Assembly: GCF_002261185.1 (NCBI RefSeq)
Contig: NZ_NEVQ01000012.1
Location: 1-64,000 of the forward strand
Direction: 5' to 3'
DNA from: Bordetella genomosp. 4
Lineage (GTDB): Bacteria > Pseudomonadota > Gammaproteobacteria > Burkholderiales > Burkholderiaceae_B
DNA length: 64,000 nucleotides
This document shows, one piece after another, positions 1 to 47,513 of the stretch. The notes under the pieces are model-generated. The model worked only from the letters and a program-made list of their open reading frames with translations, was not told where the DNA came from and ran no database searches. Numbering within the stretch: position 1 is the first letter of the stretch; the number at the start of each line of letters is the position of its first letter. Made by a program: the position numbers and the translations under genes.

Positions 1-21
1 TAGTGCGGAGTTCTTTTGGCG

Positions 22-153
22 CAGGAGGTCGGCGTGTAAAAGCCCCGCCGGGCCTATCGCCGCGACTCGGCCCAAGACCAGGGGCCTCGGCCCGCTTCGC
101 GGGCTAAATCGCGGCTCAACGGCCCGGCGGGGCTTTTACACGCCGACCTCCTG
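22..153. repeat. Family A palindrome, copy 1
   Basis: Two 33-bp arms (22-54 and 121-153) are exact reverse complements of each other. They enclose a 66-base core (55-120) that, read on the minus strand, matches the cores of the copies at 318-451 and 16217-16349. The core carries its own short hairpins, including GCCCGC/GCGGGC around a GAA-type turn. The arm sequence differs from those of the other copies except for the innermost GCCGGGCC-like bases. No credible gene overlaps it. Confidence 0.9.
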
Positions 154-317
154 CTCGCAATGTCTTCCGGTGACGGATGTCATGCGCTTTGCTGCATCAA
201 CGCTGTTGAGTTGCGTTTACGATGGCCGAATGGCGCTAGCTCAACCCATCGCATTGCCAAAGTCGGTTTCGAAAAACGAGGATGGCAATCAGCCGTCGTT
301 GCATTCCCTCATCGTGA
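154..317. other. Spacer between two family A palindromes, no gene recognised
   Basis: This 164-base stretch separates two oppositely oriented family A palindromes. Short open frames cross it on both strands, but they run on through the palindromes and encode low-complexity Arg/Gly/Pro-rich peptides, as expected of GC-rich noncoding DNA. I see no start with a ribosome binding site and no recognisable protein. Confidence 0.5.
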
Positions 318-451
318 GTCCCTGTCGCGTGCCTGGGCGTGGCGCCGGGCCGTTGAGCACGGATTTAGTCCGCGTAGCGGACCGAGGCCCCTGGTCATGG
401 GCCGAGTCCGTGCGATAGGCCCGGCGCCACGCCCAGGCACGCGACAGGGAC
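318..451. repeat. Family A palindrome, copy 2
   Basis: Arms 318-351 and 418-451 are exact 34-bp inverted repeats. The 66-base core (352-417) begins GTTGAGC and ends GCGATA. Inside the core, GTCCGC/GCGGAC forms a hairpin. It has the same orientation as the copy at 16217-16349 and the opposite one to the copy at 22-153. The arm sequence is mostly unrelated to theirs. Confidence 0.9.
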
Positions 452-502
452 GCCTTCATAGAGACAATCAAGAGCAGCAAATACCCGGCAGCAACAGCCA
501 AG

Positions 503-527
503 AAAAGCCCAGTCTGGGGGCTTTTTT
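503..527. terminator. Bidirectional intrinsic terminator next to the RDD gene
   Basis: AAAGCCC and GGGCTTT form a stem around a short loop and are followed by a T run on the plus strand. On the minus strand the same stem is followed by TTTTCTT. It lies one base past the stop of the RDD gene (528), so it most likely ends that transcript. Confidence 0.6.
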
Positions 528-1040
528 CTATCGCCGCTTGTTCCGCGGCGGCGCATTGCGCAAGCGCGTTCCCAGCAGCCGATCGTGCAGGAACTGCCCA
601 TCCGGGTCGAACCACGACCAGATGAAAATCGCGAATGGCGCTACGACGATGAACATGTCCACCGATTTCCAACCCGTAGCTGACGAGGCAACAGCCACCA
701 GGCCCGCAGCGGCCAATACGAGCGGCCAGACAAGGATATAGCGCAAGATCAGCCTGGGGACCGAGGGCGGCAGGCCATCGCGATCCACCAGCCGGATATT
801 CCAGGTCTTCATCGGCAGCGTTTGCCCATTGCGGCGCCAGCACAACACAAAATAAATGCCGATGACGACAAATAGCCACGCCTGACGTGCATGCCTGAGC
901 ATCAACGCATGTTTACTCTGCGTCAGTGTGTCAAACAAATAGCCCGCCAGAAATACGACGCCGAACAAGAGGACGGCTTCATACATCATGCAGGCAAACC
1001 GGCGTAGCCGGCTGGGCGTCAGCGAGAGCGCATCGGTCAT
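528..1040 (-). CDS. RDD family membrane protein
   Basis: The 170-residue protein fits the RDD family: small integral membrane proteins named for conserved Arg-Asp-Asp residues. Hydrophobic segments are visible at about residues 17-35, 50-66, 98-117 and 127-142. The family core is seen as MKTWNIRLVDRDG in the middle and an FDPDGQFLHDRLLGTR stretch near the C-terminus. The start is preceded by CGGAG about six bases upstream. It stands alone, with an intrinsic terminator directly after its stop. Substrate and role are unknown; some family members have been linked to ion transport, but nothing here shows that. Confidence 0.8.
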   Translation of the reverse strand: MTDALSLTPSRLRRFACMMYEAVLLFGVVFLAGYLFDTLTQSKHALMLRHARQAWLFVVIGIYFVLCWRRNGQTLPMKTWNIRLVDRDGLPPSVPRLILRYILVWPLVLAAAGLVAVASSATGWKSVDMFIVVAPFAIFIWSWFDPDGQFLHDRLLGTRLRNAPPRNKRR

Positions 1041-1099
1041 CAGAGCTCCGGAAACCTACGGGTACGCAACGCCATAGGCTGCACAAAGAGGGAAGCCAC

Positions 1100-1264
1100 T
1101 TACTTCGGAATGTGGCATGGCCAAGGGGCGCTATTATCCCGGGCATCCGGGTCCTTGGCTATAGAAATGTCCCCCAATTCGGATTCAAGCCGAACCGCCA
1201 ACATGGCGTCTTTGATGCCGATGACGAGCCGCCCGGTCAGAAACAGCAGATTCTTCGGCCACAT
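1100..1264 (-). CDS. Possible 54-residue small protein
   Basis: A short open frame starts MWPKNLLFLTGRLVIGIKD and ends CHIPK before the RDD gene. The N-terminal third is hydrophobic and the rest is polar. I do not recognise it and see no strong ribosome binding site. Its main support is position: it lies just past the terminator of the upstream small gene and before the RDD gene, on the same strand. It may be noncoding leader of the RDD transcript. Confidence 0.22.
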   Translation of the reverse strand: MWPKNLLFLTGRLVIGIKDAMLAVRLESELGDISIAKDPDARDNSAPWPCHIPK

Positions 1265-1296
1265 TGATGGCGGTACCGCCTGGCCTGCAATCAGGC

Positions 1297-1350
1297 AAAA
1301 AAAAACCCACCGGGTTAACGGTGGGTCTTAAAAGGGGCTGTAGCAGCCCC
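1297..1350 (-). terminator. Tandem hairpin terminator for the 77-residue gene
   Basis: Read on the minus strand, GGGGCTG-CTA-CAGCCCC (1350-1334) is followed by TTTT. A second hairpin, ACCCACC/GGTGGGT (1326-1305), is then followed by a run of nine T. This is a textbook intrinsic terminator 35 bases after the small gene's stop, and it argues that the gene is transcribed. Confidence 0.85.
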
Positions 1351-1384
1351 CAAGGGGAAAATCGTTACTTGCCTGTTGTTGACT

Positions 1385-1618
1385 TCAGGCGGCCGAGTGA
1401 GCGGTCTTCGTCTCAGCTTGGCGGGTAATCAGTGTCTTGACGCCTTTGCCCAATTTGCCCAGGCCACGGGCCAGAGCGCGAAACGGACGGGGGCGGAACT
1501 GCTCTTCAATCGCTTGCAACATCAGCTGGCGTTCGAGTTCGTCGGTCAGCCGGATATGGGGGTTAATGTGAGGCACGATAAATCCAGAACTTGCGTGTAT
1601 TCGTATGCAGTCATGCAT
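1385..1618 (-). CDS. Small hypothetical protein, 77 residues
   Basis: I do not recognise the family. The protein has a mixed N-terminal part, a charged stretch ELERQLMLQAIEEQF (about residues 29-43) likely to be helical, and a basic Gly/Leu-rich segment ALARGLGKLGKGVKTL. It could be a small DNA-, RNA- or membrane-interacting protein. A well-spaced sigma70-like promoter lies upstream (1713-1685) and tandem terminators lie downstream, which supports a real monocistronic gene. The ATG chosen has no strong ribosome binding site. An internal Met at about residue 33 would give a 45-residue product. Confidence 0.5.
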   Translation of the reverse strand: MHDCIRIHASSGFIVPHINPHIRLTDELERQLMLQAIEEQFRPRPFRALARGLGKLGKGVKTLITRQAETKTAHSAA

Positions 1619-1684
1619 CCCGGCTACCCGGTGTCAGCATCACGGTGAGGTGAGTGTCTACCTAGCAACCTGGGGATAACCCCT

Positions 1685-1713
1685 ATTTTAGGGTTAACCC
1701 TGAATTTACGCAA
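1685..1713 (-). promoter_or_regulatory. Sigma70-like promoter for the 77-residue gene
   Basis: On the minus strand a -35 element TTGCGT (1713-1708) and a -10 element TAAAAT (1690-1685) are separated by 17 bases. The spacer contains the palindrome GGGTTAACCC, and a related GGGTTATCCCC follows the -10, so a repressor could bind here. The predicted transcript would have a leader of about 60 bases. Confidence 0.5.
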
Positions 1714-1823
1714 GCGTCTAGTGCATCATGCGTGCTCCTGGTGCTGATGATGCGCCAGTTTTGGGCCTTGTGATCCTATTGCCACAATAATGGCGCATTG
1801 TTGCGGTGTTTTTACAACAATTA

Positions 1824-3386
1824 TCACTTGGGGTTCCGATACCCCGCTGCTACCAGTTCGAACCCGAACAGGCGGCAATCCAGCGAGCCGTTGTGCAAAG
1901 GAATCCGGCGCAGAGGTTTGAGCCGCATACGTTGAGGCAGCTCGAGGTCGCTAGAGATCACATGCAACTGCCAGCCCGAATAGGCGCGTTTCAGGTTTGC
2001 CGACCAGGCTCGCCAGAGTTCGCTATCGTCCATCGGCAGGCGTTCACCGTAGGGAGGGTTCGTGACAATCCAACCCTGTTCGGCGGGAGGGGGCACCTCG
2101 CGGGCATCACCCACCTCGAATCGAATCGTGTCGGCCGTCAGCCAGGCGCGTTCCGCGTTGTTGCGGGCATATTCCACCACCTGGGGATCCAGGTCGTAGC
2201 CGACTAGAGGCGCATCCAGCTTGGGCAAAATCCGGGCGCGCGCGTCGTCTTTCAGATCGCGCCAGCGTCGCGGATCGTGTCCGCGCATGCGTTCAAATCC
2301 CAGCGGCCGCGAAATACCTGCGGGCACGCCCAGCGCAATCCAGGCTGCCTCGATCAAAATCGTGCCGCTCCCGCAGAACGGATCCAGCAGTGGTGCGGCA
2401 GGGTCCCAGCCAGCCAGGGCCAACATCCCGGCAGCGAGGTTTTCGCGCAGCGGCGCATCCCCTTTATCCAGACGCCAACCTCGCTTGAACAGCGATTCGC
2501 CGGAGGTGTCCAGATACAGCGTCGCGGTATGTCCTGTCAGGAACAAATGTACGCGAGCGTCCGGCCGCACTGTGTCGATGCTGGGACGCGCGCCTTCGCG
2601 ATCGCGCAGGCGGTCACAGATGCCGTCCTTTGCACGCAGATTGCAGTATTGCAGGCTTTGTACCGGGCTTTTGATCGCCGAGGTGTCTACGCGCAACGTA
2701 TGCTCCGCGCCAAACCAGCGTTCCCAGGGCACGCTGTAGGCCAGATCGAGGATATCGTCCTCGTGCGAGATTTCCTCGTGTGCCACCTGCACCAGGATGC
2801 GCGTGGCCAGACGGGAATACAAATTGGCGCGCTGTATGCCCGGCCAATCGGCGCTGAAATGGCAGCCGGCACGTCCCACACGAGCGTCTTCGAAGCCCAG
2901 CGCCTGCATTTCTGCGGTCAGGGCTTCTTCCAGTCCTTGGGGGCAAGGCGCAAAAATCTCGAACGTCTCTGCGTCGCGCAGTGCACGCGGTGCGTAGTGA
3001 CGCACTTCGGGTTCTGCCGCCCATTCGATATCCGAGGGAAAGGCATCATGATCGCCAGCTGCAGCCGGCGTTGAATCGGTCCAATTATCCTCATCGCGAG
3101 CGCGTGGCGTCCTCGGCCGCCGTGGTGCGTCGAATTCGCCAGACGCACGTGAGCGTGACACCGGTTTGCCGCGCTCGGCCGACACGTTGCCTCGTGGCGC
3201 GGCGGGCGTGTCTTCGGTGTTTCGCCGTAGGCGTTGTGCTTGATCTTTCGATCGTTCAATCAGGGCAGCTGTGCGTGCACGCGCGCCGCTGCGCTTGCGT
3301 TTGGTATCGCCAGCGGCGGCATGCGCGTCACGCGCCGTTTTTTTGACCGTCAGTGTTTTACGGCGGTCTTGATCATCAGAAGACAT
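1824..3386 (-). CDS. THUMP-domain class I SAM-dependent RNA methyltransferase (RlmL/YpsC-like)
   Basis: The 520-residue protein resembles methyltransferases that put m2G on 23S rRNA (RlmL N-terminal half, YpsC family). Residues 1 to about 130 are a basic, Ala/Arg/Lys-rich and probably disordered extension. A THUMP RNA-binding region starts near residue 142 (FEIFAPCPQGLEEALTAEM). The Rossmann methyltransferase domain shows DPFCGSGTILIEAAW for SAM binding and a catalytic NPPYGERLP motif at about residue 443. It lacks the second methyltransferase domain of E. coli RlmL, so it should perform only the m2G-type reaction. The long N-terminal extension is unusual beside bacillary relatives and may add nonspecific rRNA affinity. 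The start has an AGGA about six bases upstream. Confidence 0.85.
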   Translation of the reverse strand: MSSDDQDRRKTLTVKKTARDAHAAAGDTKRKRSGARARTAALIERSKDQAQRLRRNTEDTPAAPRGNVSAERGKPVSRSRASGEFDAPRRPRTPRARDEDNWTDSTPAAAGDHDAFPSDIEWAAEPEVRHYAPRALRDAETFEIFAPCPQGLEEALTAEMQALGFEDARVGRAGCHFSADWPGIQRANLYSRLATRILVQVAHEEISHEDDILDLAYSVPWERWFGAEHTLRVDTSAIKSPVQSLQYCNLRAKDGICDRLRDREGARPSIDTVRPDARVHLFLTGHTATLYLDTSGESLFKRGWRLDKGDAPLRENLAAGMLALAGWDPAAPLLDPFCGSGTILIEAAWIALGVPAGISRPLGFERMRGHDPRRWRDLKDDARARILPKLDAPLVGYDLDPQVVEYARNNAERAWLTADTIRFEVGDAREVPPPAEQGWIVTNPPYGERLPMDDSELWRAWSANLKRAYSGWQLHVISSDLELPQRMRLKPLRRIPLHNGSLDCRLFGFELVAAGYRNPK

Positions 3387-3417
3387 TCGAATCCTGGCCT
3401 AAGGCCGGGCAGTGTGG

Positions 3418-3846
3418 TCAGAAGGGTTTGAGCACCACCAGCAGTACCACCGCCACGAGCAGTAAGACGGGAACTTCGTTGAACCAGCGGTAGAACTTGT
3501 GCGAGCGGGTGTTGCGGCCTTGTTCGAACTTGCGCAACATGACGCTACAGGCGTGATGGTAGCCGATGATGAGCAGGACAAAGAACAATTTGGCGTGCAT
3601 CCAGCCGTTGCCGGGGCCCATGCCGACACCAAATCCGATGTACAGCCATAGGCCTAGTGCGATGGCGATGATGGCCAGGATGGTGGTGAATCTGAATAGT
3701 CGGCGCGCCATGCCGAGCAGACAGGCTTGTACCGAGGGGTCGGAGGTCTGGGCCAGATTCACGTAGATCCTGGGCAGGTAAAAGAGACCTGCAAACCAGG
3801 AGGCGATGAATACGATGTGGAAGGCTTTGACCCAGAGGTACAGCAT
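3418..3846 (-). CDS. hemJ: Protoporphyrinogen IX oxidase, HemJ type
   Basis: The 142-residue membrane protein matches HemJ, the oxygen-independent enzyme that converts protoporphyrinogen IX to protoporphyrin IX in haem synthesis. Four hydrophobic segments are visible. The N-terminal KAFHIVFIASWFAGLFYLPR contains the conserved His at residue 10, and GWMHAKLFFVLLIIGYHH contains the conserved Lys of the family. Full family length argues for the Met at 3846, although the frame remains open to 4071 through the neighbouring repeat; that extra N-terminus (SRNNTKRTAK...) looks noncoding. It is 31 bases downstream of the methyltransferase start on the same strand, so it is transcribed separately or from the same upstream region. 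Confidence 0.88.
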   Translation of the reverse strand: MLYLWVKAFHIVFIASWFAGLFYLPRIYVNLAQTSDPSVQACLLGMARRLFRFTTILAIIAIALGLWLYIGFGVGMGPGNGWMHAKLFFVLLIIGYHHACSVMLRKFEQGRNTRSHKFYRWFNEVPVLLLVAVVLLVVLKPF

Positions 3847-3992
3847 GGTGGGGCTTTGGGGGAATGTGGGTGGATATGGGGATTGTAGTCGGCCTGTCGT
3901 TTGAACGGGAGAGTTGCGCTTTTTTGGCGGTATGGTGGGTTTTGTCGTTTTGGCTGTTCTCTTGGTATTGTTTCGGCTGTCTCTCGTGAGGC

Positions 3993-4214
3993 GTCCCGGG
4001 CGGGTGTCGCGCCGTGTTGCGCCGGCCCTGTCGGCTGGCCTGGACGCCTGCGCGCCCAGACTTCCCTTCACCAGGAGTGTCAGGCGGGGCGGCTGGGCAA
4101 ACTCGCTCCGCTACGCTGCGCTCAAACATGCCCAGCCGAAATCCCCCCGCCTGACACTCCTGGCTCGGCAGCCTCAACGGGCCAGCGCAACACGGCGCGA
4201 CACCCGCCCGGGAC
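3993..4214. repeat. Family B palindrome, copy 1
   Basis: Outer arms 3993-4022 and 4185-4214 are exact 30-bp inverted repeats. A second nested stem pairs CCAGGAGTGTCAGGCGGGG (from 4071) with its complement ending near 4163, followed by CGGCTGGGCA/TGCCCAGCCG. The loop contains AACTCGCTCCGCTACGCTG. The nested part matches 47600-47666 closely, while the outer arms do not match those of that copy. Open frames across it are artefacts of the repeat. The rest of the 3847-4245 gap holds no recognisable gene. Confidence 0.88.
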
Positions 4215-4245
4215 TCACAGTGGTGGCATGCGATGAGGGGAATCC

Positions 4246-5697
4246 CTAAATTACGTATAAATCCATGTATTCATGCACGGGCATTTCCTCCAACGTCTGC
4301 TGATCTAACGAGACCTCCAGAATTCGCGTCTGCTGTTTGGCAGGGAAGATCCGCGCCAGATTCGTCCTGAATTTGGCTTCGAGCAACGGAATTCCATCGC
4401 TGCGACGCCGTTTGTGCCCGATCGGGTATTCGCAGACCACCTCGTCCAGTTGCGTACCGTCGTTGAAAATCACCGTCAATGCGTTGGCGATCGATCGTTT
4501 GTCTGGGTCGTGATAGTCGCGGGTATAGGCCGGGTCCTCCACGCAGATGATCTTGTCGCGCAGGAGGTCGATGCGCGGATCGTGCGCGATGTCGTCCTCG
4601 TAGTCCGCGGCGGTGAGGCGGCCGAACAGGATGGGGATGGCCACCATGTATTGGATGCAGTGGTCGCGGTCGGCCGGGTTATTGAGCGGGCCTTTCTTGT
4701 CGATGATGCGAATGCATGCTTCGTGGGTGCGGATGATGATCTGCTTGATGTCGCCCACTGATCTGCCGGCAGCTACGAGCTGATCATGAATCGTCATGGC
4801 GCATTCCACTGCGGTTTGCGCATGAAACTCGGCCGGAAACGAGATTTTGAACAGCACGTTTTCCATGACATAGCTGCCATACGGGCGCTGAAACTTGAAG
4901 GGCTGGCCTTTGAAGAGGACGTCGTAGAACCCCCAGGTTTTTGCGCTCAGCACCGAGGGGTAGCCCATTTCGCCTGTTTTTGCGATCAACGCCAGGCGCA
5001 CCGCGCGGCTGGTGGCGTCGCCCGCGGCCCAGCTTTTGCGGCTGCCCGTGTTCGGCGCATGACGATAGGTGCGCAGGCTCTGGCCGTCGACCCAGGCCAG
5101 CGAAACCGCGTTGATGGTTTCCTCGCGGCTCAGGCCCAGCATTTGCGCGACGACGGCGGTGGAGGCGACTTTGACGAGGACGACATGATCGAGGCCGACT
5201 TTGTTGAATGAGTTCTCCAGGGCGATGCACCCCTGGATTTCATGCGCCTTGATCATGGCTGTCAGCACATCGCGCATGGTGAGTGGGGCTTTACCCAATG
5301 CAACGGCATTGCGCGACAGCCAGTCTGCGGTGGCCAGGATGCCGCCCAGATTGTCCGAAGGATGCCCCCATTCGGCCGCGAGCCAGGTGTCGTTGAAGTC
5401 CAGCCAGCGGATCATGGCGCCGATGTTGAAGGCGGCCTGGACGGGGTCGAGCTGGAATTGGGTGCCCGGGACCTTGGCTCCGTGAGGGACGATCGTGCCC
5501 GGCACGATCGGGCCGAGCAGCTTGCGGCACGCCGGGTATTCCAGTGCCTCCAGGCCGCAGCCTAGCGTGTCGATCAGACAATTGCGCGCCGTTTCATAAG
5601 CCAGGCTGCTCTGGATTTGATAGTCGAGAACGTAATCGACAATGTCTATGAGGACCTGATCGGGCTCGGGGCGGACATTGGAGATATGAGCGGACAT
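4246..5697 (-). CDS. prpD: 2-methylcitrate dehydratase PrpD
   Basis: The 483-residue protein is the iron-independent dehydratase that turns 2-methylcitrate into 2-methyl-cis-aconitate in propionate catabolism. It aligns from memory over its whole length with E. coli PrpD, which is also 483 residues. Shared stretches include [56 protein letters not shown] and [16 protein letters not shown]. The start at 5697 has AGAAGGAG five bases upstream, so the open frame beyond it is not used. It diverges from the GntR gene, with their promoters in the shared gap. It is separated from prpB and prpC by about 11 kb, and it coexists with acnD/prpF, which do the same job. Confidence 0.95.
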
Positions 5698-5804
5698 GCG
5701 GGCTCCTTCTGTGCAATCCGCGCCTATGTGCGCGGGTGGGGCAAGGGCGTACGCCAAAGCCCCGTTATCGGGGACAGGAGACGATGGGTCGAATCAAGGG
5801 CATG

Positions 5805-5878
5805 ATTGTTGACAATCTAGCCAATAAATCGCCTCATGGCTATAATTTAATCCGAAATAATCTACGAATTGTCGACAT
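5805..5878. promoter_or_regulatory. Candidate GntR operator pair between prpD and gntR
   Basis: ATTGTTGACAAT (5805-5816) and ATTGTCGACAT (5868-5878) share the pattern ATTGTyGACAw, which resembles the TTGTnnACAA-type sites of FadR-subfamily regulators. A TATAAT at 5841-5846 lies between them and would start transcription just before the second site. The second site overlaps the chosen gntR start codon. This layout would allow autorepression and control of divergent prpD. Confidence 0.45.
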
Positions 5879-6593
5879 GGTGGAAAAAGTCCTCACGCTG
5901 CCTGTACCGGCCGCGAGCGAATCGGAGACGCTCTCCGAGCACGTGTTCCGCAAGATTCAGTCCGCCATCGTCAAAGGCGACATCTCGCCCGGGAGCAAGA
6001 TTTCCGAGCCGGAATTGGCGCGCACCTATGGCATCAGCCGCGGGCCGCTGCGCGAGGCCATCCACCGTCTCGAGGGACAGCGCCTGCTGGTGCGCGTGCC
6101 GCATGTGGGCGCTCGCGTCGTGTCGCTGAGCCAGCAAGAGCTCTGCGAGCTCTACCAGATTCGAGAATCGCTTGAGGGCATGGCCTGTCGCCTGGCCGCA
6201 GAACGGATGACGCCGGCAGCCGCAGATGAGCTGCGTCGCGTGCTCGAGGCCCACGAGCGCGATGAGGCATTCCAGGCGGGACGTGGTTACTATCAGCAGG
6301 AAGGCGATTACGATTTTCACTACCGTATCGTTCAGGCCAGCGGCAACCAGATGCTGATTCGCATGCTGTGCGACGAGCTCTATCAACTGGCCCGTATGTA
6401 TCGCATTCAATATTCGACGACGCCCAATCGGCCTCGTCAGGCGTTTACCGAGCATCACCGCATTCTCGACGCTATCGCCGACGGCGATGGCGAGTTGGCT
6501 GAACTGCTGATGCGCAGACACATACGCGCATCCCGTCTCAATATCGAACATCAGATCGCGCAGAGCAACTTGCCGCAAACGGAGGCATCTTGA
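5877..6593 (+). CDS. GntR-family (FadR subfamily) transcriptional regulator of the propionate genes
   Basis: The 238-residue regulator has an N-terminal winged helix-turn-helix (about residues 20-85; SEPELARTYGISRGPLREAI is the recognition region). An all-helical FCD ligand-binding domain follows, with metal-binding-type residues in YDFHYRIVQASGN and TEHHRILDAI. The gene overlaps acnD by four bases (ATCTTGAA junction) and diverges from prpD, so methylcitrate-pathway genes are its likely targets and a methylcitrate-type acid its likely ligand; both are inferences. The start is uncertain. The Met at 5877 gives the usual family length but has no clear ribosome binding site. A Met at 5784 preceded by AGGAG would add 31 residues. 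Confidence 0.85.
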   Translation: MVEKVLTLPVPAASESETLSEHVFRKIQSAIVKGDISPGSKISEPELARTYGISRGPLREAIHRLEGQRLLVRVPHVGARVVSLSQQELCELYQIRESLEGMACRLAAERMTPAAADELRRVLEAHERDEAFQAGRGYYQQEGDYDFHYRIVQASGNQMLIRMLCDELYQLARMYRIQYSTTPNRPRQAFTEHHRILDAIADGDGELAELLMRRHIRASRLNIEHQIAQSNLPQTEAS

Positions 6594-9205: not shown

Positions 9206-9330
9206 CGTGCCTGCCGCAGGTATCGAGCAGAGCATTTGAGACACAACACCGGCTTGGTTTGCCCATTCATGTGGCGGCCAAGCCTGAATCCTATTGCGCA
9301 GATGGCGCTATCTATTTTCAGGACTGGTCG

Positions 9331-10524
9331 ATGACTCACGCACCACAAATCAAGATACCCGCGACATACATGCGCGGCGGCACCAGCAAAGGCGTGTTTT
9401 TCAAACTGACGGATTTGCCCGAGGCGGCTCAGGTTCCCGGGCCCGACCGTGACGCACTGTTGTTGCGCGTGATCGGCAGCCCCGATCCGTATGGCAAGCA
9501 GATCGACGGCATGGGGGGAGCGACCTCCAGCACGAGCAAGGCCGTCATCTTGTCCAAGAGCAGCAGGCCGGATCACGATGTGGATTACCTGTTCGGCCAA
9601 GTTTCCATTGACCAGCCTTTCGTGGATTGGAGCGGCAATTGCGGCAATCTGTCTGCCGCGGTCGGCCCCTTCGCCATTGCCAACGGCTTGGTGGACGCAC
9701 AGCGTGTGCCCGAGAACGGCGTGGTAGTGGTGCGGATCTGGCAAGCCAATATCGGAAAGACCATCGTCGCCCATGTGCCGATCGCGCACGGCCAGGTGCA
9801 GGAAGTTGGCGACTTCGAACTGGATGGCGTCACGTTCCCTGCAGCTGAAGTCCGAATCGAGTTTCTGGATCCTGCCGACGAAGGCGAGGGTGATGGCGGC
9901 TCGATGTTTCCGACGGGTAACGTGGTCGACGAGCTGGATGTGCCGGGCGTAGGAACGTTTCAAGCGACGTTCATCAATTCCGGTATCCCTACGATCTTTC
10001 TGAATGCGGATGCGCTGGGCTATACCGGCACCGAATTACAGGACGACATCAATAGCGACCCTGCGGCTTTGGCGCGTTTTGAAGCGATCCGTGCGCATGG
10101 CGCAGTACGCATGGGCCTGATCGACTCGCCGGATCAGGCTGCAGGCCGTCAGCACACGCCTAAAGTGGCGTTTGTGGCCCCGCCGAAGGCCTATACCGCA
10201 TCGAGCGGTAAAGCCATCGCCGCGGAGGATATCGATGTGCTGGTACGCGCCTTGTCGATGGGTAAATTGCACCATGCCATGATGGGAACGGCATCGGTGG
10301 CTATCGCCACGGCGGCAGCCGTGCCTGGCACGTTGGTCAACTTGGCGGCAGGCGGCGGCGAACGCGATGGTGTACGTTTCGGACATCCCTCTGGCACGTT
10401 GCGAGTCGGGGCCGAGGCTCGCCTGGTCAATGACGAATGGACGGTCACCAAAGCCATCATGTCGCGTAGCGCACGCGTGTTGATGGAAGGCTGGGTGCGT
10501 GTGCCTTGGGCTCCGGGAGTGTGA
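9331..10524 (+). CDS. prpF: 2-methylaconitate cis-trans isomerase PrpF
   Basis: The 397-residue protein matches PrpF, which isomerises the trans-2-methylaconitate made by AcnD so that aconitase can hydrate it. The family resembles diaminopimelate epimerase in fold. Visible signatures are TYMRGGTSKGVFFKL at the N-terminus, DGMGGATSSTSKAVIL and DWSGNCGNLSAAVGPFA, the last carrying an active-site-type Cys. The Met at 9331 gives the family start (MTHAPQIKIPATYMRGG). The gap to acnD is 125 bases. A GC-rich hairpin follows the stop at 10535-10561. Confidence 0.93.
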   Translation: MTHAPQIKIPATYMRGGTSKGVFFKLTDLPEAAQVPGPDRDALLLRVIGSPDPYGKQIDGMGGATSSTSKAVILSKSSRPDHDVDYLFGQVSIDQPFVDWSGNCGNLSAAVGPFAIANGLVDAQRVPENGVVVVRIWQANIGKTIVAHVPIAHGQVQEVGDFELDGVTFPAAEVRIEFLDPADEGEGDGGSMFPTGNVVDELDVPGVGTFQATFINSGIPTIFLNADALGYTGTELQDDINSDPAALARFEAIRAHGAVRMGLIDSPDQAAGRQHTPKVAFVAPPKAYTASSGKAIAAEDIDVLVRALSMGKLHHAMMGTASVAIATAAAVPGTLVNLAAGGGERDGVRFGHPSGTLRVGAEARLVNDEWTVTKAIMSRSARVLMEGWVRVPWAPGV

Positions 10525-10534
10525 TCAGCATAAG

Positions 10535-10561
10535 CCGGTTGGCACGCTGTACGCCAACCGG
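10535..10561 (+). terminator. Hairpin after prpF
   Basis: CCGGTTGGC and GCCAACCGG pair over nine bases around a nine-base loop, 11 bases after the prpF stop. No T run follows, so it may be a weak intrinsic terminator or a 3'-end stabiliser of the gntR-acnD-prpF transcript. Confidence 0.4.
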
Positions 10562-10635
10562 ATGCACGTAATTGGGGCTATATCCCTGCTTGTTGCCAAA
10601 TCGGTGTACTTCGCTTCATAATTTGCGGCTTATTT

Positions 10636-10657
10636 GTTATTAATAAGCATTTTCATT
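10636..10657 (+). promoter_or_regulatory. Possible Fur box upstream of fecI copy 1
   Basis: The AT-rich stretch GTTATTAATAAGCATTTTCA resembles the repeated NATWAT arrangement of Fur boxes and stands out from the GC-rich surroundings. It lies about 60 bases before the sigma factor gene. The match is only approximate and weaker than that at 50622-50644. Confidence 0.4.
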
Positions 10658-10712
10658 TGTGTTCCTCTGGTTTACCGGCACGTGAGTGCCTGGTACTACG
10701 CTGGGCTGCATC

Positions 10713-11258
10713 ATGATTGTCTCGAATCCCGCAAATTGTGTCGCCCGGCTGTATGGGGATCATCACGGCTGGCTGGTCGGCTGGTTGCGTCGGCGCCTGG
10801 GTAACACCGCCGACGCCGCAGAATTGGCGCACGACGTCTTCGTGCGCCTGCTGGTCAAACCTCGCCAATTCGACGGTGCCCCTCAGGCGCGCGGGTATTT
10901 GCGCGCAATGGCCGACGGCATGTGCGTGGACTTGTGGCGCCGGCGCAGCCTCGAGCAGGCGTGGCTGGAAGTCTTGGCCCAGGAGCCTGAGCCAACGGCA
11001 CCGTCGGCTGAACGCCAGGCCATCGTGCTCGAGGCCCTGCAGGAGATCGATGCCATGCTGCAAGATCTGTCTCCCAAGGCGGCGAATGCCTTTGTCATGG
11101 CCATGGCTTGCGGGATGACCGATCGGGAAATTGCCACTGCGCTCGGGGTTTCGTCCCGCATGGTTCGCAAGTACGTCGCCAAGGCCATGCTGAATTGCAT
11201 GCTTTTGGAGGCCCGCGACGTCGCGGTCGATAGCCCCGCGCCTGCCTCGCAATCGTGA
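10713..11258 (+). CDS. ECF sigma factor, FecI-like
   Basis: The 181-residue protein is an extracytoplasmic-function sigma factor of the iron-starvation FecI type. Region 2 covers roughly residues 10-75 (LYGDHHGWLVGWLRRRLGN, AAELAHDVFVRLL, ARGYLRAMADGMCVDLWRRR). Region 4 covers roughly residues 115-165 (LSPKAANAFVMAMACGMTDR, EIATALGVSSRMVRKYVAKA). It should direct RNA polymerase to the downstream receptor promoter when released by FecR. The fecR start overlaps its stop (GTGA at 11255-11258), showing translational coupling. ATG 10713 is the first Met compatible with the family start. Confidence 0.9.
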   Translation: MIVSNPANCVARLYGDHHGWLVGWLRRRLGNTADAAELAHDVFVRLLVKPRQFDGAPQARGYLRAMADGMCVDLWRRRSLEQAWLEVLAQEPEPTAPSAERQAIVLEALQEIDAMLQDLSPKAANAFVMAMACGMTDREIATALGVSSRMVRKYVAKAMLNCMLLEARDVAVDSPAPASQS

Positions 11259-12229
11259 GTTCTCACGTCGCTACCCCCTCTCATGCGGTCCTGGAGCAGG
11301 CAGCCCAATGGTACGCATTGCTGCGCTCTGGAGAAGCCTCGTCGATAGACCGCTTGAGCTGGCAACGATGGCTGGACGCGGCCGCTGAGCACCGCCAGGC
11401 GTGGGCAGTCGTCGAGAGAGTGGGGCAGCGTTTCGAACCTCTCCAAGCCCGTCAGGACCGGCATATTGCCGCAGCCACCTTTCGGCGCGCACGCGGCGCC
11501 AGGCCTCGCCGCCGGCAGGTACTGCTGGCGCTGGTCGGGGTCGCCGGCGCGGGATGGTTGGGATGGCGCCATGGGTCCTGGCTCCATCCCGTCATGGCGT
11601 GGACGGCCGACCAGCGGGCCGATACGGGTGAAATTCGCCATCTTGCGCTGGATGATGGCAGTGAAGTCTGGCTGAATGCAGAAAGCGCGTTTAACGTAAT
11701 GTATAGCCAGCAGGCGCGGCGTTTGCACTTGCTCTACGGGGAAATGCTGGTGCAAACGGGGAAGGACGCGCGTCCTTTCTTTGTCGATACTGAACAAGGC
11801 AGTCTGCGTGCCCTTGGTACGCGTTTCACCGTGCGGCAGGAAACGGGTGACACGCTGGTCGCGGTGTACGACGGCGCTGTCGAGGTGGCCCTCGCGCGCA
11901 ATAGGCTGACCAGCATCGTCGCGGCCGGAGCGCAACTGCGTTTCACGGGCGAGGAGCTTGGCTTGCCTGTCGCGGCGGATCCGGCCAGGGCCGCGTGGAT
12001 CCGCGGGCTTATTGTTGCTGATGGCATGCGTTTGGCTGACGTGGTCGCGGAACTGCGTCGCCATCAACATGGCTATATCAACCTGGCCGATGAGGTGGCG
12101 GACTTGCGAGTGTTCGGCAGCTATCCCGCTGATGATCCGGTCCGCGCGTTGACGATGTTGGCATCTGTCATGCCCATCCAGGTGCATCGAACCCTGCCGT
12201 GGTGGATTCGGATCGACGCACGCTCGTAA
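11255..12229 (+). CDS. FecR-type inner-membrane sigma regulator
   Basis: The 324-residue protein fits FecR, which relays the receptor signal to the cognate sigma factor. Residues 1 to about 75 form the cytoplasmic sigma-binding domain (AAQWYALLRSGEASS, RLSWQRWLDAAAEHRQAW). A single hydrophobic segment (LLALVGVAGAGWLGW) spans residues near 90-104. The periplasmic part contains the FecR domain (DTGEIRHLALDDGSEVWLN). The C-terminal part (VADGMRLADVVAELRRHQHG) is typical of the receptor-contacting region. It starts with GTG overlapping the fecI stop and is followed after 122 bases by the receptor. Confidence 0.9.
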   Translation: MSSHVATPSHAVLEQAAQWYALLRSGEASSIDRLSWQRWLDAAAEHRQAWAVVERVGQRFEPLQARQDRHIAAATFRRARGARPRRRQVLLALVGVAGAGWLGWRHGSWLHPVMAWTADQRADTGEIRHLALDDGSEVWLNAESAFNVMYSQQARRLHLLYGEMLVQTGKDARPFFVDTEQGSLRALGTRFTVRQETGDTLVAVYDGAVEVALARNRLTSIVAAGAQLRFTGEELGLPVAADPARAAWIRGLIVADGMRLADVVAELRRHQHGYINLADEVADLRVFGSYPADDPVRALTMLASVMPIQVHRTLPWWIRIDARS

Positions 12230-12351
12230 ATTTTCCGCGGGCGGTTCCGCTTTTTGCTGGCTTATTCGATTAGGTATATCGAGAGCCCGATGCCCGGTCA
12301 TCGGATTTGTGCTCCTTTTTCGATAATTTCGCCAGGAAAGCCGCCATCGCC

Positions 12352-14787
12352 ATGACGCATTGTTCCCCGGATAGTCTATTGCCCGCTCGCAGCATGGGTG
12401 TACGTTCGAGTTTGCTTGCACGCCGGTTCGCATTTGCACTGGCCGTCGCCGGTCTCGCGGGATGGGTGTCGCCAGCCTATGCTCAGACACTACCTGTCAC
12501 TACGGCGGCGCGCAGTTACGATATTCCGGCGGGACCTCTGAACCAAGTGCTGGCGCGCCTGACGGCCGAGTCAGGCCTATTGCTCGCCGCCACGCCGCAA
12601 CTCGTTGCCGGCCGTCACAGCCCGGGCGTGAAAGGCAGCTATGGTGATGATGAAGCGCTGAATCGGGCATTGGCGGGCACGGGGCTCGTAGCGTTGCGTG
12701 AGGCGCCGCGTCAATTCCGATTGGCACCTGTTTCTGAGGCAGACACCGCCGTGCTCGAGCCTGTGACAGTCACTGCCGGGGCCGGAGGCGGTACTCTGCC
12801 TGAACCCTACGCAGGAGGGCAGGTCGCGCGAGGCGCACGGCTTGGTCTGCTGGGCAGTGTCGACATGATGAGTGCACCATTCAATGTCACAGCCTATACG
12901 GCTGAGCTCATGCGTGACCAGCAAATGCGCAGTCTTTCCGATGTGATGGCCAACGACCCTTCGGTGGAAGCGGGCGGCCCCTGGTATTTCGACAACTTTT
13001 ATATCCGCGGCCTCAGTGTGAATCGCGCCGAGATCGGCTTTGACGGCATGTATGGTATTGCCAGCTCGGAAGGGGTGCAGTTAGAGGGGATCGAGCGCGT
13101 CGAAGTGCTCAAGGGACCGAGCACACTCATCAATGGAACCTCGCCACGGGGTACGGCTGGCGGGGCCATTAATCTCGTACCCAAGCGTGCCGCCGACGAG
13201 CCATTGACCCGATTCGAGGCCTTGTACTTGAGCGACAGCAACGTGGGTGCCAATGTCGATATTGGGCGCCGCTTTGGCGAGAGCAATGCCTTTGGGGTGA
13301 GGTTGAACGCGGCTTATCGCGATGGGGATGCCTCGGTAGATCACGAGCAGCAGCGTGCGTCAAATGTCACTGTGGGCCTGGATTATCAGGGCGAACGTTT
13401 GCGCGCCAGCGCCGACATGGGCGTAAGCAGCCAAAAGATCACTGGCGCCAAGAGCAATTTCTACGTATCCGCCTCCGAACTGCCTGAAGCGCCGAGAGGT
13501 GACACGAATGTGTGGCCATCTTGGTCGTACCAGGACAAGGAATATGTCTTCGGCATGGCTCGTATCGAATATGACGTGACGGATTTCATGAGCGTTGGCG
13601 GGGCGTATGGTGCCTCTGACACTCGCCGAAAAATGAATACCCCTTTTGGGGTGCTGACCAACACCGAAGGCGACATTGACTTTTTCCCCAGTGCGTTGGA
13701 GGAAAAGAATAAGGCGCACAGCGGGGAACTCAATACGCGGCTGCGCTTTGACACGGGGCCGGTACGTCACGAAGCGGTCTTGGCGATGACGGATTATCGT
13801 TCCAAGGTTTCCAACTACCAGCCCCAATCGACGTATAGCGCGGCCAGCAACCTCTACGATCCAGTCGATATTCCGGAGCCGTCAGGGTTGGACTTCGATC
13901 GCTCGTTGACACCACTGTCTTCGACTCGGTTGCGCAGCTATGCGATCACAGACACGCTCTCCATGTTGGATGACAGGGTACTTTTGATTCTCGGGCTACG
14001 GCATCAGAAAATCGATGTGAACGCCTATAACTGGCAGACAGGCGCCTTCGAGTCCAATTACAAGCAGAGTGCCAATACGCCCGCCACGGGGCTGGTAGTC
14101 AAGCCATGGCAAGATGTCTCGTTGTACGCCAACTATGTAGAAGCGCTGTCTCAGGGGGATACCGCCCCGTCGACGGCGGTCAATGCCAACGAAGTCTTTG
14201 AGCCCTTTGTTTCAAGACAGATGGAGATTGGCGCGAAGGTCGACTGGGGAAGTTTCAGCACCACACTGAGTGCGTTCCAGATCAAGCGGCCTAGCGGCAT
14301 TCTGGGCTCGGACAATGTCTACCGTATCGCGGGAAAACAGCGAAACCGCGGCATAGAACTGCAGGTGTTGGGAGAGCCCGTGCGAGGCTTTCGTCTGCTG
14401 GGAGGCCTCGCTTGGACGCGTGCCATCCTGACGGAAACTCCGGACGGAGCCTTCGATGGCAACAAGGCCGCGGGTATTCCCACCTGGTCCGTAAAGCTGG
14501 GATCCGAGCTCGATATTCCTCAGATACCGGGACTGACTGCCACGGCGCGCCTGATCTACTCGTCATCGATTCCCTTCAACGCCGATAATACGGAGACCAT
14601 TCCTGCCTGGACACGGGTTGATGTGGGCGCGCGTTATGCGACGCGTATCGTGGATAGAAATGTCGTGTTTCGGGCGACCGTGGAAAACGTATTCAATCGC
14701 CGCTATTGGGATACTTCGCCAGCGTATCAGACCGTGACGTATGCAGCACCGCGTACGTATATGCTATCGGCGAGCATCGAGTTTTGA
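12352..14787 (+). CDS. TonB-dependent siderophore receptor with STN signalling domain
   Basis: The 811-residue outer-membrane receptor imports a ferric siderophore using TonB energy. A signal peptide ends near residue 44 (AYA-Q). The STN domain (RSYDIPAGPLNQVLARLTAE onward, about residues 53-115) talks to FecR. The plug follows (VEVLKGPSTLINGTSPRGTA), then a beta barrel ending in SASIEF with a terminal Phe. The Met at 12352 has AGGAAAG about 12 bases upstream; a GTG at 12307 would add 15 residues. The fecI-fecR-receptor order implies self-induction by its substrate. The siderophore cannot be named from sequence alone. Confidence 0.92.
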   Translation: MTHCSPDSLLPARSMGVRSSLLARRFAFALAVAGLAGWVSPAYAQTLPVTTAARSYDIPAGPLNQVLARLTAESGLLLAATPQLVAGRHSPGVKGSYGDDEALNRALAGTGLVALREAPRQFRLAPVSEADTAVLEPVTVTAGAGGGTLPEPYAGGQVARGARLGLLGSVDMMSAPFNVTAYTAELMRDQQMRSLSDVMANDPSVEAGGPWYFDNFYIRGLSVNRAEIGFDGMYGIASSEGVQLEGIERVEVLKGPSTLINGTSPRGTAGGAINLVPKRAADEPLTRFEALYLSDSNVGANVDIGRRFGESNAFGVRLNAAYRDGDASVDHEQQRASNVTVGLDYQGERLRASADMGVSSQKITGAKSNFYVSASELPEAPRGDTNVWPSWSYQDKEYVFGMARIEYDVTDFMSVGGAYGASDTRRKMNTPFGVLTNTEGDIDFFPSALEEKNKAHSGELNTRLRFDTGPVRHEAVLAMTDYRSKVSNYQPQSTYSAASNLYDPVDIPEPSGLDFDRSLTPLSSTRLRSYAITDTLSMLDDRVLLILGLRHQKIDVNAYNWQTGAFESNYKQSANTPATGLVVKPWQDVSLYANYVEALSQGDTAPSTAVNANEVFEPFVSRQMEIGAKVDWGSFSTTLSAFQIKRPSGILGSDNVYRIAGKQRNRGIELQVLGEPVRGFRLLGGLAWTRAILTETPDGAFDGNKAAGIPTWSVKLGSELDIPQIPGLTATARLIYSSSIPFNADNTETIPAWTRVDVGARYATRIVDRNVVFRATVENVFNRRYWDTSPAYQTVTYAAPRTYMLSASIEF

Positions 14788-14803
14788 TGCTCGCATGAGC
14801 AGC

Positions 14804-15661
14804 CTATCCCCGCGCGGCGGCCTTGAATGCTGCGGACAGCGCAATCAGCGTATCAGTCGCGCGCTGCGATTTGACTCGGGTATGCAACACGATCGGCAGG
14901 CTCGGCAGTGCAGGCAGGCCCAGCTTCGAACCTATGTCAACGGCGCCAAAAGGCAACATCCGCGGGGCCAATGCCGCCACGCCCAACCCTGCCATGACCG
15001 CTGCGGCGACGGCTGCCACGCCACCGCCAACAAAGACTTCGGTCCATGGCACAGCGGCCTCATCCAGCAGCTTGCCGGCTAGCGCTCTCACTCCACATGG
15101 CTCGGCGAGGGTGGCTAGCGGCAATGGCTCATTGGCTCGCGGCTGCCAACTCGGTGCCGCGAACCAGCCTAGCGTTTCTTCAGCAAGTATCTGCCCGTCG
15201 GTGCCTCCCAGATGCTGCCGGACGATCACGGTATCGAACTCTCTCCGTTCATACCGCTGAATCAAATCACCGGATGAGCCGATACGGATTTCGATCACCA
15301 GATCGGGATCTTGCGCATTCATGCGCGAGATCAAGGCAGGCAGCTCCGGCCCGGCGACATGGTCACTGATGCCGATAGTCAGACGTTGCCGGGTTCCGGA
15401 AAAAACCGATAGTGCGCGATCGTGGGCGTCCAGCAATGCGCGTGCATGCTCCAGGAACGCATTGCCTTGCGCAGAGAGCTCCACATACCGGGGCGTGCGC
15501 TCGACCAGCCGGAATCCCACTCTGTCCTCGAGCCGCTTGAGTTTCAGACTGACTGCCGCCTGCGTCATCTGCAGCGCTTCGGCGGCACGCGTGAAACTGC
15601 CCAGTTCGACGATCTGCACGAACGCCCGTACCGCATCCAGGTCCAGAGAGGTCGCTATCAT
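14804..15661 (-). CDS. LysR-family transcriptional regulator
   Basis: The 285-residue protein has an N-terminal winged helix-turn-helix (AVRAFVQIVELGSFTRAAEA, LQMTQAAVSLKLKRLEDRVG, residues about 10-60) and a periplasmic-binding-like effector domain from about residue 90 (RLTIGISDHVAGPELPALIS). It is convergent with the TonB receptor gene, only 16 bases from its stop, and divergent from a tautomerase gene with an 82-base gap. LysR regulators often control the divergent gene, so the tautomerase is the likeliest target. Effector unknown. Confidence 0.93.
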   Translation of the reverse strand: MIATSLDLDAVRAFVQIVELGSFTRAAEALQMTQAAVSLKLKRLEDRVGFRLVERTPRYVELSAQGNAFLEHARALLDAHDRALSVFSGTRQRLTIGISDHVAGPELPALISRMNAQDPDLVIEIRIGSSGDLIQRYERREFDTVIVRQHLGGTDGQILAEETLGWFAAPSWQPRANEPLPLATLAEPCGVRALAGKLLDEAAVPWTEVFVGGGVAAVAAAVMAGLGVAALAPRMLPFGAVDIGSKLGLPALPSLPIVLHTRVKSQRATDTLIALSAAFKAAARG

Positions 15662-15670
15662 TTCAAATTT

Positions 15671-15700
15671 TTATTAATGAAATAAGTATAAATAGCTTAT
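15671..15700. promoter_or_regulatory. LysR-type binding-site candidate between lysR and tautomerase
   Basis: TTATTAATGAAATAA (15671-15685) has TTATT/AATAA arms around a five-base centre. It overlaps a second interrupted palindrome, ATAAG...CTTAT (15682-15700). The region is strongly AT-rich beside GC-rich genes and holds the divergent promoters. Assignment to this LysR protein is by position only. Confidence 0.4.
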
Positions 15701-15743
15701 CAGAATAGATACGATGAGTGCGTCCATCACCGGGAGCATTGCT

Positions 15744-16136
15744 ATGCCATTTGTTCATGTTTCACTGCGCGCGGGAACGCCGGAAGCCTATCGGCAGGCG
15801 ATTTTCGACAATGTGTACCGTGCATTACGAGAGACGTTCAACGTCCCTGAAGACGATCAATTCATGATCTTGACCGAGCACGAGGCGGCGAACTTTCGCT
15901 ACAGTCCTTCGTATATGAATGTCGCCCGCAGCGACGACCTGGTCTACATCCAGATGACTGTCAGCAATACACGAGACCTGGACCAGAAAAAAGCGCTGTT
16001 CAAGCGGCTCGTGCAATTACTCGGCGAGGACCCTGGCATCCGTCCCGAGGACGTATTCATCAACCTGGTCGAAGTCGTCAAAGAAAACTGGTCCTTCGGC
16101 CACGGCCAAGCGCAGTACGCCTCAAGCCAAAATTAA
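15744..16136 (+). CDS. Tautomerase superfamily protein
   Basis: The 130-residue protein resembles the tautomerase superfamily (4-oxalocrotonate tautomerase and malonate semialdehyde decarboxylase relatives), whose catalytic Pro1 is exposed when Met is removed. MPFVHVSLRAGTPEAYRQAI puts Pro directly after Met. This is the reason for choosing the start at 15744 rather than an in-frame ATG 30 bases earlier; GGGAG lies upstream of it. The double-length monomer (about 130 residues) fits the malonate semialdehyde decarboxylase-like branch. It is divergent from a LysR gene. Substrate unknown; a role in breaking down an unsaturated or halogenated acid is possible but not shown. Confidence 0.82.
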   Translation: MPFVHVSLRAGTPEAYRQAIFDNVYRALRETFNVPEDDQFMILTEHEAANFRYSPSYMNVARSDDLVYIQMTVSNTRDLDQKKALFKRLVQLLGEDPGIRPEDVFINLVEVVKENWSFGHGQAQYASSQN

Positions 16137-16216
16137 CGCGCATCGCTCTCATCAATAAGAGCAACTGTAAGCCGAAAGCGTTGCGCAACAGCCCTCGTCA
16201 ATCAGTGCAATCGCAA

Positions 16217-16349
16217 GCCGGGGGCAGTCGCCTATAAGCCCCACCGGCCCGTTGAACCGCGGGCAGTCCCCGAAGGGGACCTCGGCCCCTGCTAATGGGC
16301 CGAGCCGCGGTGATAGGGCCGGTGGGGCTTATAGGCGACTGCCCCCGGC
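16217..16349. repeat. Family A palindrome, copy 3
   Basis: Arms 16217-16250 and 16316-16349 are exact 34-bp inverted repeats around a 65-base core (16251-16315) starting GTTGAACCGCGG and ending CGCGGTGATA. The core folds into two hairpins (GTCCCC/GGGGAC; CTCGGCCC/GGGCCGAG) closed by CCGCGG/CCGCGG, giving a three-way junction. The core matches the copies at 22-153 and 318-451. It sits between the convergent tautomerase and prpC genes. Two imperfect copies of a roughly 30-base unit containing ATCAATnAGnGCAA precede it (16145-16216). Confidence 0.9.
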
Positions 16350-16415: not shown

Positions 16416-17621
16416 TTATTTACGCTTTTCCAAGGGCACATACTTCAGATCATCCGGCCCGATATAGTTAGCCGTAGGACGAATAATCTTGTTATCGACC
16501 CGCTGTTCAATGATGTGAGCCGACCATCCCGCCGTACGTGCAATCACGAACAACGGCGTGAACATAGCCGTAGGCACACCCATCATGTGATAGCTGACAG
16601 CCGAGAACCAATCCAGGTTCGGGAACATCTTCTTGACTTCCCACATCACCGTTTCCAGACGCTCGGCGATGTCGAACATCTTGGTGCTGCCGGCCTTCTT
16701 CGAAAGCTTGTGCGCGACTTCCTTGATGACCTTGTTGCGCGGATCCGAAACCGTGTAGACGGGGTGACCAAAACCGATGACGACTTCCTTGGCTTCGACG
16801 CGGCGGCGGATATCGGCCTCGGCTTCGTCCGGGGTGTCATAGCGTTTCTGGATTTCGAAAGCCACTTCGTTGGCGCCGCCGTGTTTCGGGCCGCGCAGCG
16901 CGCCGATCCCGCCGGTGATCGCCGAATAAATGTCCGAGCCCGTGCCGGCAATGACGCGGCTGGTGAACGTCGAGGCATTGAACTCATGCTCGGCGTACAA
17001 AATCAGCGACGTATGCATGGCGCGAACCCATTCGTCGGACGGTTTCTTGCCATGCAGCAGATGCAGGAAATGGCCGCCGATGCTGTCATCATCCGTTTGC
17101 ACATCGATGACGCGGCCGTTGTGGCTGTAGTGATACCAGTACAGCAACGAGGAACCCAGGTTGGCCATCAAACGATCGGCGATGTCGCGCGCATCGGGGA
17201 TGTTGTGATCGTCCTTTTCGGGCAACACGCAGCCCAGCACCGATACGGCCGTACGCATCACGTCCATGGGGTGGCTGGCGGCGGGCAGGCTTTCCAGCAC
17301 GTTTTGCAGTTGCACCGGCAGACCACGCAGCGCGCGGAGTTTTTCCTTGTAGGCTTTCAGCTCAGCCTTGTTCGGCAGCTTGCCATGCACCAGCAAATGC
17401 GCGATTTCTTCGAATTCGGCCTCGCCGGCAAAATCCAGGATGTCGTAACCACGATAGTGCAAATCGTTGCCCGTGCGGCCGACGGTACACAGCGCCGTGT
17501 TACCGGCCACGACGCCCGACAATGCGACGGATTTTTTAGGTTTGAAGCCCGCTTTTTCTTCTGTCGGGGCAGCCGTTTTGGTGGCCTCGGCCGTAGCGGC
17601 TTGTTTCTTCGAAGTGCTCAT
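16416..17621 (-). CDS. prpC: 2-methylcitrate synthase PrpC
   Basis: The 401-residue citrate synthase homologue condenses propionyl-CoA with oxaloacetate to 2-methylcitrate. Key signatures are [20 protein letters not shown] and [19 protein letters not shown], with the catalytic His and substrate Arg. The HPV variant of the GHRVY motif is typical of 2-methylcitrate synthases, in contrast to [15 protein letters not shown] in the gltA product of this window. Residues 1 to about 30 are a low-complexity Lys/Ala/Thr leader absent from many relatives. AAAGGAG precedes the start. It lies 94 bases after prpB on the same strand, so they form an operon prpB-prpC. Confidence 0.94.
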
Positions 17622-47455: not shown

Positions 47456-47513
47456 TTTCTAGCGTTGAATAGTTTGACGGGCGTGAGGATGGGTTCTTCT
47501 GTCGCGATGTGCC

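Follow-up and report, generated by a model that had tools for sequence, protein, structure and literature searches.

A family of structure-constrained palindromes in Bordetella genomosp. 4 with features of a mobile, Rho-type transcription stop

Palindromic elements in the window

The window analyzed here, by which we mean the whole 64,000 bp stretch of Bordetella genomosp. 4 contig NZ_NEVQ01000012.1 (positions 1 to 64,000), carries three copies of a palindromic element that we refer to as A-type, in each of which a core of 65-66 nt is closed by two 34-nt arms. Copies 1 and 2 form a back-to-back pair at the start of the window, and copy 3 is flanked by convergent reading frames at 15714-16136 (+) and 16416-17621 (-). 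The scores are those of R1, a model built from 40 copies. The genome to which the window belongs (G000; 5.53 Mb in 23 contigs) is called the own genome below.

21-154, - strand: A-type copy 1; arms 121-154 and 21-54, core 55-120; R1 148.0 bits
155-317: spacer of the back-to-back pair, 163 bp, with the facing 5' flanks at about 155-187 and about 285-317
318-451, + strand: A-type copy 2; arms 318-351 and 418-451, core 352-417; R1 150.4 bits
452-531, + strand: 3' flank and tail of copy 2; 21 C and 18 G in 80 nt
16187-16216, + strand: 5' flank of copy 3
16217-16349, + strand: A-type copy 3; arms 16217-16250 and 16316-16349, core 16251-16315; R1 135.7 bits
16350-16429, + strand: C-rich tail of copy 3; 27 C and 11 G in 80 nt, with the motif GTCTAAAGAAC

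An earlier note made from the sequence had described three copies with a shared core and perfectly matched arms, and this is borne out: the arms pair at 34 of 34 positions in every copy, around cores of 66, 66 and 65 nt. Its coordinates hold for copies 2 and 3, but for copy 1 they miss a single base on either side. The predicted RNA folding energies of copies 1 to 3 are -121.0, -122.7 and -125.4 kcal/mol, with z scores from -14.0 to -16.2 (the latter for copy 2), and none of 200 shuffled sequences was equally stable. The reverse strand of copy 2 folds at -119.2 kcal/mol, close to the core strand, and energy alone therefore does not single out a strand. The proposed core of two hairpins on a common stem emerges as the consensus when 40 copies are folded together, and copies 2 and 3 also fold best in this way on their own, whereas the best single fold of copy 1 has a different, unforked core. 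By eye, junctions within the core (for example at window 383-406) contain tandem G.A/A.G pairs (CGAGGCCC..GGGCCGAG) that are swapped for Watson-Crick pairs in other copies (CTCGGCGC..GCGCCGAG), which suggests sheared G.A pairs in the core fold.

Copy number and distribution

The own genome contains about 50 copies, comprising at least 49 core-strand R1 matches that score 106 bits or more, one of which is truncated at a contig end, and another at 84.9 bits. Among the other 43 of its 93 R1 matches, 41 represent the opposite strands of these palindromes and two are members with a different core. These counts are lower bounds, with 150 of 4086 candidates scored and with palindromes that probably break the assembly; contigs stop inside or beside copies at the end of contig C8 (L025) and at the start of contig C6 (window 1-154). 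Matches are present in all nine genomes of the genus, the own genome included, and in none of four genomes from other families. A family-wide sample gave matches in 13 of 200 genomes and 3 of 43 genera (E <= 1e-7), and an order-wide sample in one of 300, the own genome, under strict filters and with 11 candidates scored per genome shown. R1 also catches other long palindromes, and matches near or below 50 bits (G018 at 49.8, G200 at 53.5) are less sure because two at 48.3 (L277) and 29.5 bits (L274) fall on a different repeat family. The plasmid and phage collections contain no match to the three queries tried.

For the comparisons below, loci were fetched for part of the matches and 182 hairpins were extracted; 11 that failed the orientation rule were dropped, leaving 171 A-type copies of assigned orientation, drawn from 13 genomes (47 own, 124 outside). 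Six of the 11 dropped hairpins, which we hold to be members (L015, L022, L033, L177, L238 and L244), were restored for the count of pairs only.

Arm pairing is maintained on one strand

The earlier note had suggested comparing arm complementarity with arm similarity between copies. Among 43 own copies just 40 of 1462 arm positions are unpaired, although the left arms differ between copies by a mean of 14.9 of 34 positions. At 39 of 52 pairs there is at least one both-sided compensatory change (40 copies). That the arms differ is correct for the three window copies, but genome-wide they form related classes and recently spread copies have arms in common; copy 1 differs from copies in L009, L024, L037 and L010 at 0-3 of the inner 30 pairs.

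The mismatches that remain are strongly asymmetric. Read on the core strand, the inner 30 pairs of the 171 copies contain 110 G.U-type mismatches and 14 of the A.C type, or 76 and 14 when each combination of genome, position and type is counted once (p = 2e-11). Outside the own genome the numbers are 71 and 10 (124 copies; this is the clean set, as a count of 58 to 7 in 99 copies includes one G018 element twice), and over all 34 pairs of the 43 own copies they are 29 and 3. G.A exceeds C.T in the same direction, at 29 to 7 (20 to 7 when counted once each, p = 0.02). A DNA palindrome, or arm copying alone, would be expected to leave equal numbers of the two types, and we conclude that one single strand is under selection. 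Together with the compensatory changes, this strongly supports the earlier suggestion that structure is selected rather than sequence. That strand is most likely RNA, and RNA-level selection on the element is well supported by these sequence comparisons. On the same asymmetry we reject a symmetric DNA cruciform.

The bias is kept in every gene context, at 24:2 in 38 copies antisense to both neighbours, 27:5 in 39 copies sense to both, 37:5 in 56 copies between convergent genes and 8:0 in eight copies between divergent genes, which indicates that the foldable strand is defined by the element itself. Single copies (57:8) and paired copies (53:6) are alike in this respect.

How the arms change can be followed in close comparisons. 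Five elements are orthologous between G078 and G180, with flanks that are 88-97% identical, and 12 of their 150 arm pairs differ: seven are compensated, all by transitions, and five are one-sided. This shows that the structure is kept up after insertion, and fits a path through G.U. Between the nearest copies, those that differ at 1-3 of 30 pairs (27 non-independent comparisons drawn from 148 copies), there are 33 both-sided Watson-Crick changes, 17 of them transversions, together with four other both-sided and 24 one-sided changes (37 versus 24 in total). A single C-G to G-C flip in the inner 30 pairs separates the L037 copy from three sister copies. In view of the transversions some arm copying is possible in addition, and it may act as a helper to selection. 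The proposal that the arms are renewed by templated repair or by copying of one arm may hold in this lesser role; as the sole process it does not explain the asymmetry, since such processes should treat both strands alike.

Flanks, exchangeable cores and back-to-back pairs

Three aspects of the architecture lie beyond the earlier note, namely conserved flanks outside the arms, exchangeable cores and back-to-back pairing. The 5' flank is about 30 nt long and in the own genome mostly ends with TGTGA or TGCGA; the conserved 3' motif resembles GTCTC-NNNN-GAGAC or contains AAGAAC. The element as a whole is about 200 bp and consists of the 5' flank, a 34-nt arm, the forked core, a 34-nt arm, the 3' flank and a C/A-rich tail. 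Within the same kind of arms and flanks, cores of 66, 92 or 150 nt are exchanged in the own genome. The C-type (92-nt core, 30-bp arms) occurs at L017, L157 and L163, and the B-type (150-nt core) at L012, L014, L016, L018, L032 and L163 and twice in the window:

3993-4214, - strand: B-type member with long arms and a 150-nt core; flanks on the - strand GCCTCACGAGAGAC (3') and GCATGCCACCACTGTGA (5')
47504-47735, - strand: B-type member with a core of about 150 nt; 3' flank on the - strand GACAGAAGAACC

Neighbouring elements up to 600 bp apart (n = 52) follow a simple rule. In 48 the left partner is on the minus and the right partner on the plus strand (-/+), two are +/+ and none is +/-; in the other two the script left the strand of the left partner unplaced, but its flanks read as minus, giving 50 of 52 as -/+. 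The spacing of A-type pairs is 70-366 bp. Copies 1 and 2 of the window are an example, and their pair is repeated with similar spacer ends at G000:C4:120496-120926 and G000:C9:230963-231393. Targeting of gene ends was considered as the cause of the rule and rejected, as tandem regions with two elements contain 20 sense and 18 antisense and the pairs are -/+ throughout.

A C-rich tail follows the hairpin

In 20-nt steps over the 100 nt that follow the hairpin on the core strand, the fraction of C is 0.34-0.40, A 0.23-0.35, G 0.18-0.22 and T 0.11-0.17. Over the 80 nt next to the hairpin, C outnumbers G in 167 of 170 copies, and in 85 of 170 it does so at least two-fold. Such a two-fold excess occurs in 12 of 171 upstream stretches and in 3 of 67 60-nt stretches of 3' untranslated region (UTR) that lack elements. 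The skew is alike across gene contexts and absent from those 67 stretches (C 0.30, G 0.30). We also applied a rule for Rho utilization (rut) sites that is similar to RhoTermPredict. With a ratio above 2, it is satisfied by 118 of 170 downstream stretches on the core strand, by none downstream on the other strand, and by 28 and 14 upstream on the core and the other strand respectively; with a ratio above 1 the corresponding numbers are 162, 20, 129 and 87. The mean folding energy of 80 nt is -11.6 downstream on the core strand, compared with -22.7 downstream on the other strand and -22.1 upstream on the core strand. Rut sites are described in PMC7815308 as C-rich, G-poor and poorly structured regions, and by its predicted properties the tail is on average poorly structured and resembles a Rho-loading site. 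An intrinsic terminator was rejected, as only 3 of 171 copies have at least four T in the 8 nt after the arm and only 7 of 170 have a terminator-like site in the 150 nt that follow.

Gene context and mobility

Genes were called with a simple GC-frame gene finder, which placed both neighbours for 141 of 171 elements. Intergenic regions with elements are convergent in 45 instances, tandem in 58 and divergent in seven, and element-free regions in 11, 44 and 23, so that elements are enriched where genes converge and uncommon where they diverge (convergent versus divergent, p = 4e-7).

The earlier note had called for a comparison of occupied and empty sites. At the gene pair that matches the L037 site, six relatives (G001-G006) lack an A-type element, and R1 matches there are limited to 48.3 (L277) and 29.5 bits (L274) and, by eye, belong to a different palindrome family. 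Likewise, orthologous L179 and L206 have one element in common and a second is present in L179 only. The intergenic DNA of the relatives cannot be aligned at the site matching L037, and the orthologous elements of L194 and L175 also do not align. The other family in the relatives has units like GGTGTCTGACACC..GGAGTCAGACACC (L204:1609, L231:1314), and these fill the intergenic stretches of L273, L274, L276 and L277, the region that the L037 element occupies in the own genome.

A search for Y1_Tnp transposases (PF01797) gave no match in the own genome and none in G003 or G007. G001, G002, G004, G005, G006 and G008 have one match each (six of the nine genus genomes), one of these with an internal stop. 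When three of these same-genus Y1_Tnp loci were scanned with R1, the best score was 21 bits. L260:635-1113, beside a Y1_Tnp gene, contains five weak R1 matches of 9.6-21 bits, possibly that transposase's own repeats.

Interpretation and alternatives

A mobile Rho-type stop is consistent with selection on one strand, the back-to-back arrangement, the scarcity of copies between divergent genes and a C-rich tail when these are taken together. Our preferred reading is that the palindromes form a genus-level family of mobile, structure-constrained, Rho-type transcription stops combined with a 3'-end hairpin, the pairs of which would often serve as two-way insulators; we put its probability at somewhat under one half (about 0.48). 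Following transcription of the core strand, Rho would load on the C-rich tail and RNA polymerase would be stopped, after which 3'-5' exonucleases would shorten the RNA as far as the highly stable hairpin to leave a defined and protected 3' end. A back-to-back pair would do this for transcription arriving from both sides. Because an arm would need pairing alone, its sequence would be able to drift, partly via G.U intermediates. A broader claim is possible but one we hold only tentatively, that this is a new class of mobile element spreading stop cassettes (a hairpin with a Rho-loading tail, drifting paired 34-bp arms and exchangeable cores) that, as two-way insulators, set transcript ends genus-wide.

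Several observations weigh against a mobile Rho-type stop. The tail is also T-poor and A-rich and in this is not specific to rut, 85 of 170 copies fall below a two-fold excess of C over G, the rut-like rule at a ratio above 1 is also passed by 129 of the 170 upstream stretches on the core strand, and in window copy 2 C only slightly outnumbers G (21 to 18 in 80 nt). Orientation in tandem regions is even, with 39 elements sense and 38 antisense to both neighbours, unlike that expected for a simple 3'-UTR terminator of the upstream gene, and we reject an element of that kind for lack of any such preference. In an earlier count of mismatches over 33 pairs, which relied on a cruder way of orienting the copies, the bias outside the own genome was weaker (55 versus 23), diluted by outer bases at which the register slips by one. 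Termination alone does not account for the constant -/+ order of the pairs, and we infer core-strand transcription, the Rho step and the insulator role from sequence.

An unlikely alternative is that the elements encode independent small RNAs, each separately transcribed, with a pair giving two RNAs that run outward from shared promoter DNA and bind protein or act in trans. This would explain why the element, and not its neighbouring genes, determines which strand is selected, why the 5' ends face each other in pairs, and why the 5' flank is conserved. A sigma-70 promoter in that flank was nevertheless rejected, since the mean best score over the 171 copies is 7.37 forward, 7.37 in reverse and 7.22 after shuffling, with no enrichment upstream. 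Some pairs have a spacer of only 70 bp, and small RNAs would have no need of a common C-rich tail.

Somewhat less likely again is that the palindromes are ends of mobile DNA, with the folded strand recognized by a transposase in the style of REP/RAYT or IS200/IS605 and the pair constituting a miniature transposon with inverted ends. The missing copy in six relatives, the presence of the whole copy 1/2 pair in three copies, the inverted pairing and the restriction of matches to few genera are all as expected for such ends, but at fixed orthologous sites the structure continues to be maintained once the element has inserted. Moreover, the folding strands of a pair are on opposite DNA strands, and one single-stranded intermediate would presumably not show both; the lack of Y1_Tnp matches in the own genome, G003 and G007 and the low R1 scores at the three Y1_Tnp loci point the same way. 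Maintenance at the DNA level, by template switching or arm-to-arm copying at a palindrome that has no RNA function, is improbable, as it accommodates the excess of both-sided changes, the transversions and the L037 flip among close copies but would produce strand-symmetric mismatches where 110 and 14 are seen, and accounts neither for the 7 of 7 transitions at orthologous sites nor for a strand-specific tail.

If the elements do act as mobile Rho-type stops, the family brings together subjects that are usually studied apart, namely palindromic repeats that move, compensatory maintenance of RNA structure, and signals of the Rho type. Some 50 natural copies with differing arms in one genome could reveal what a hairpin with a tail needs to stop transcription and fix RNA 3' ends. 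The ratio of G.U to A.C on a palindrome is also a test, from sequence alone, of RNA versus DNA function, and is applicable to other repeat families.

Relationship to known elements

The view that no named element has this design agrees with searches of Rfam and of the open-licence literature. No Rfam family scores above its gathering score at the copies, and within the window only sucA does so (RF01070, 43228-43307, 48.3 bits); the best scores for copy 3, relative to their cut-offs, are mir-4041 at 19.7/74, Twister-sister at 16.5/34 and mir-645 at 13.9/90 bits. We know of no family of Rho-dependent terminators that is mobile, multi-copy and covarying and is arranged in back-to-back pairs. The likeness to Rho-dependent terminators with trimmed 3' ends would be in the predicted C-rich, G-poor, unstructured stretch beside a stable hairpin on the same strand.

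ERIC, NEMIS/Correia and RUP are short dispersed repeats, some of which can fold as RNA, with terminal repeats conserved in sequence. The arms of the element described here are, in contrast, conserved mainly in pairing. REP, BIME and REPIN (RAYT) sequences are similar in being dispersed intergenic palindromes that occur singly or as inverted pairs, are probably mobile and are capable of forming RNA hairpins. The differences are in the 34-bp arms of varying sequence, the forked core, the C-rich tail and the lack of a Y1_Tnp match in the own genome; according to PMC3733652, REP stems are 5-13 bp long and carry GTAG or CGTC as a terminal tag, while the outer ends of the arms here are mostly G...C and GTAG is found within some cores only, not as a REP-like end tag. 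Membership of REP/RAYT was therefore rejected on arm length, end tag and cognate Y1 transposase, the dispersed, intergenic and inverted-pair arrangement being the shared feature.

A search for prpC neighbours in named genomes gave 80 loci (Achromobacter, Bordetella and many others), and there is no R1 match in the 30 of these that were scanned and no such palindrome beside the gene in six that were viewed. At L150 (G200, of another genus) a weak match of 53.5 bits lies downstream of a prpC-like gene, as window copy 3 does, and the two are possibly at the same site.

The nearest described repeat of Bordetella is BRE, which like the element is a GC-rich, mainly intergenic repeat. PMC3110155, which also names ERIC, NEMIS/Correia and RUP as repeats, describes BRE as occurring in Bordetella and other betaproteobacteria, about 90 bp long, with some in tandem arrays of varying number and one locus that yields small RNAs. 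The element, at about 200 bp and single or inverted (50 of 52 neighbours), departs from this description in length and layout, although a part of it, such as the B-type core, may be identical with BRE. Within the B-type core, at window 4071-4163 and at L016:1237-1331, a nested hairpin GGGCATGTTTGAGCG..GCGAGTTTGCCC lies between variable arms of its own, and this nested hairpin may be the published BRE.

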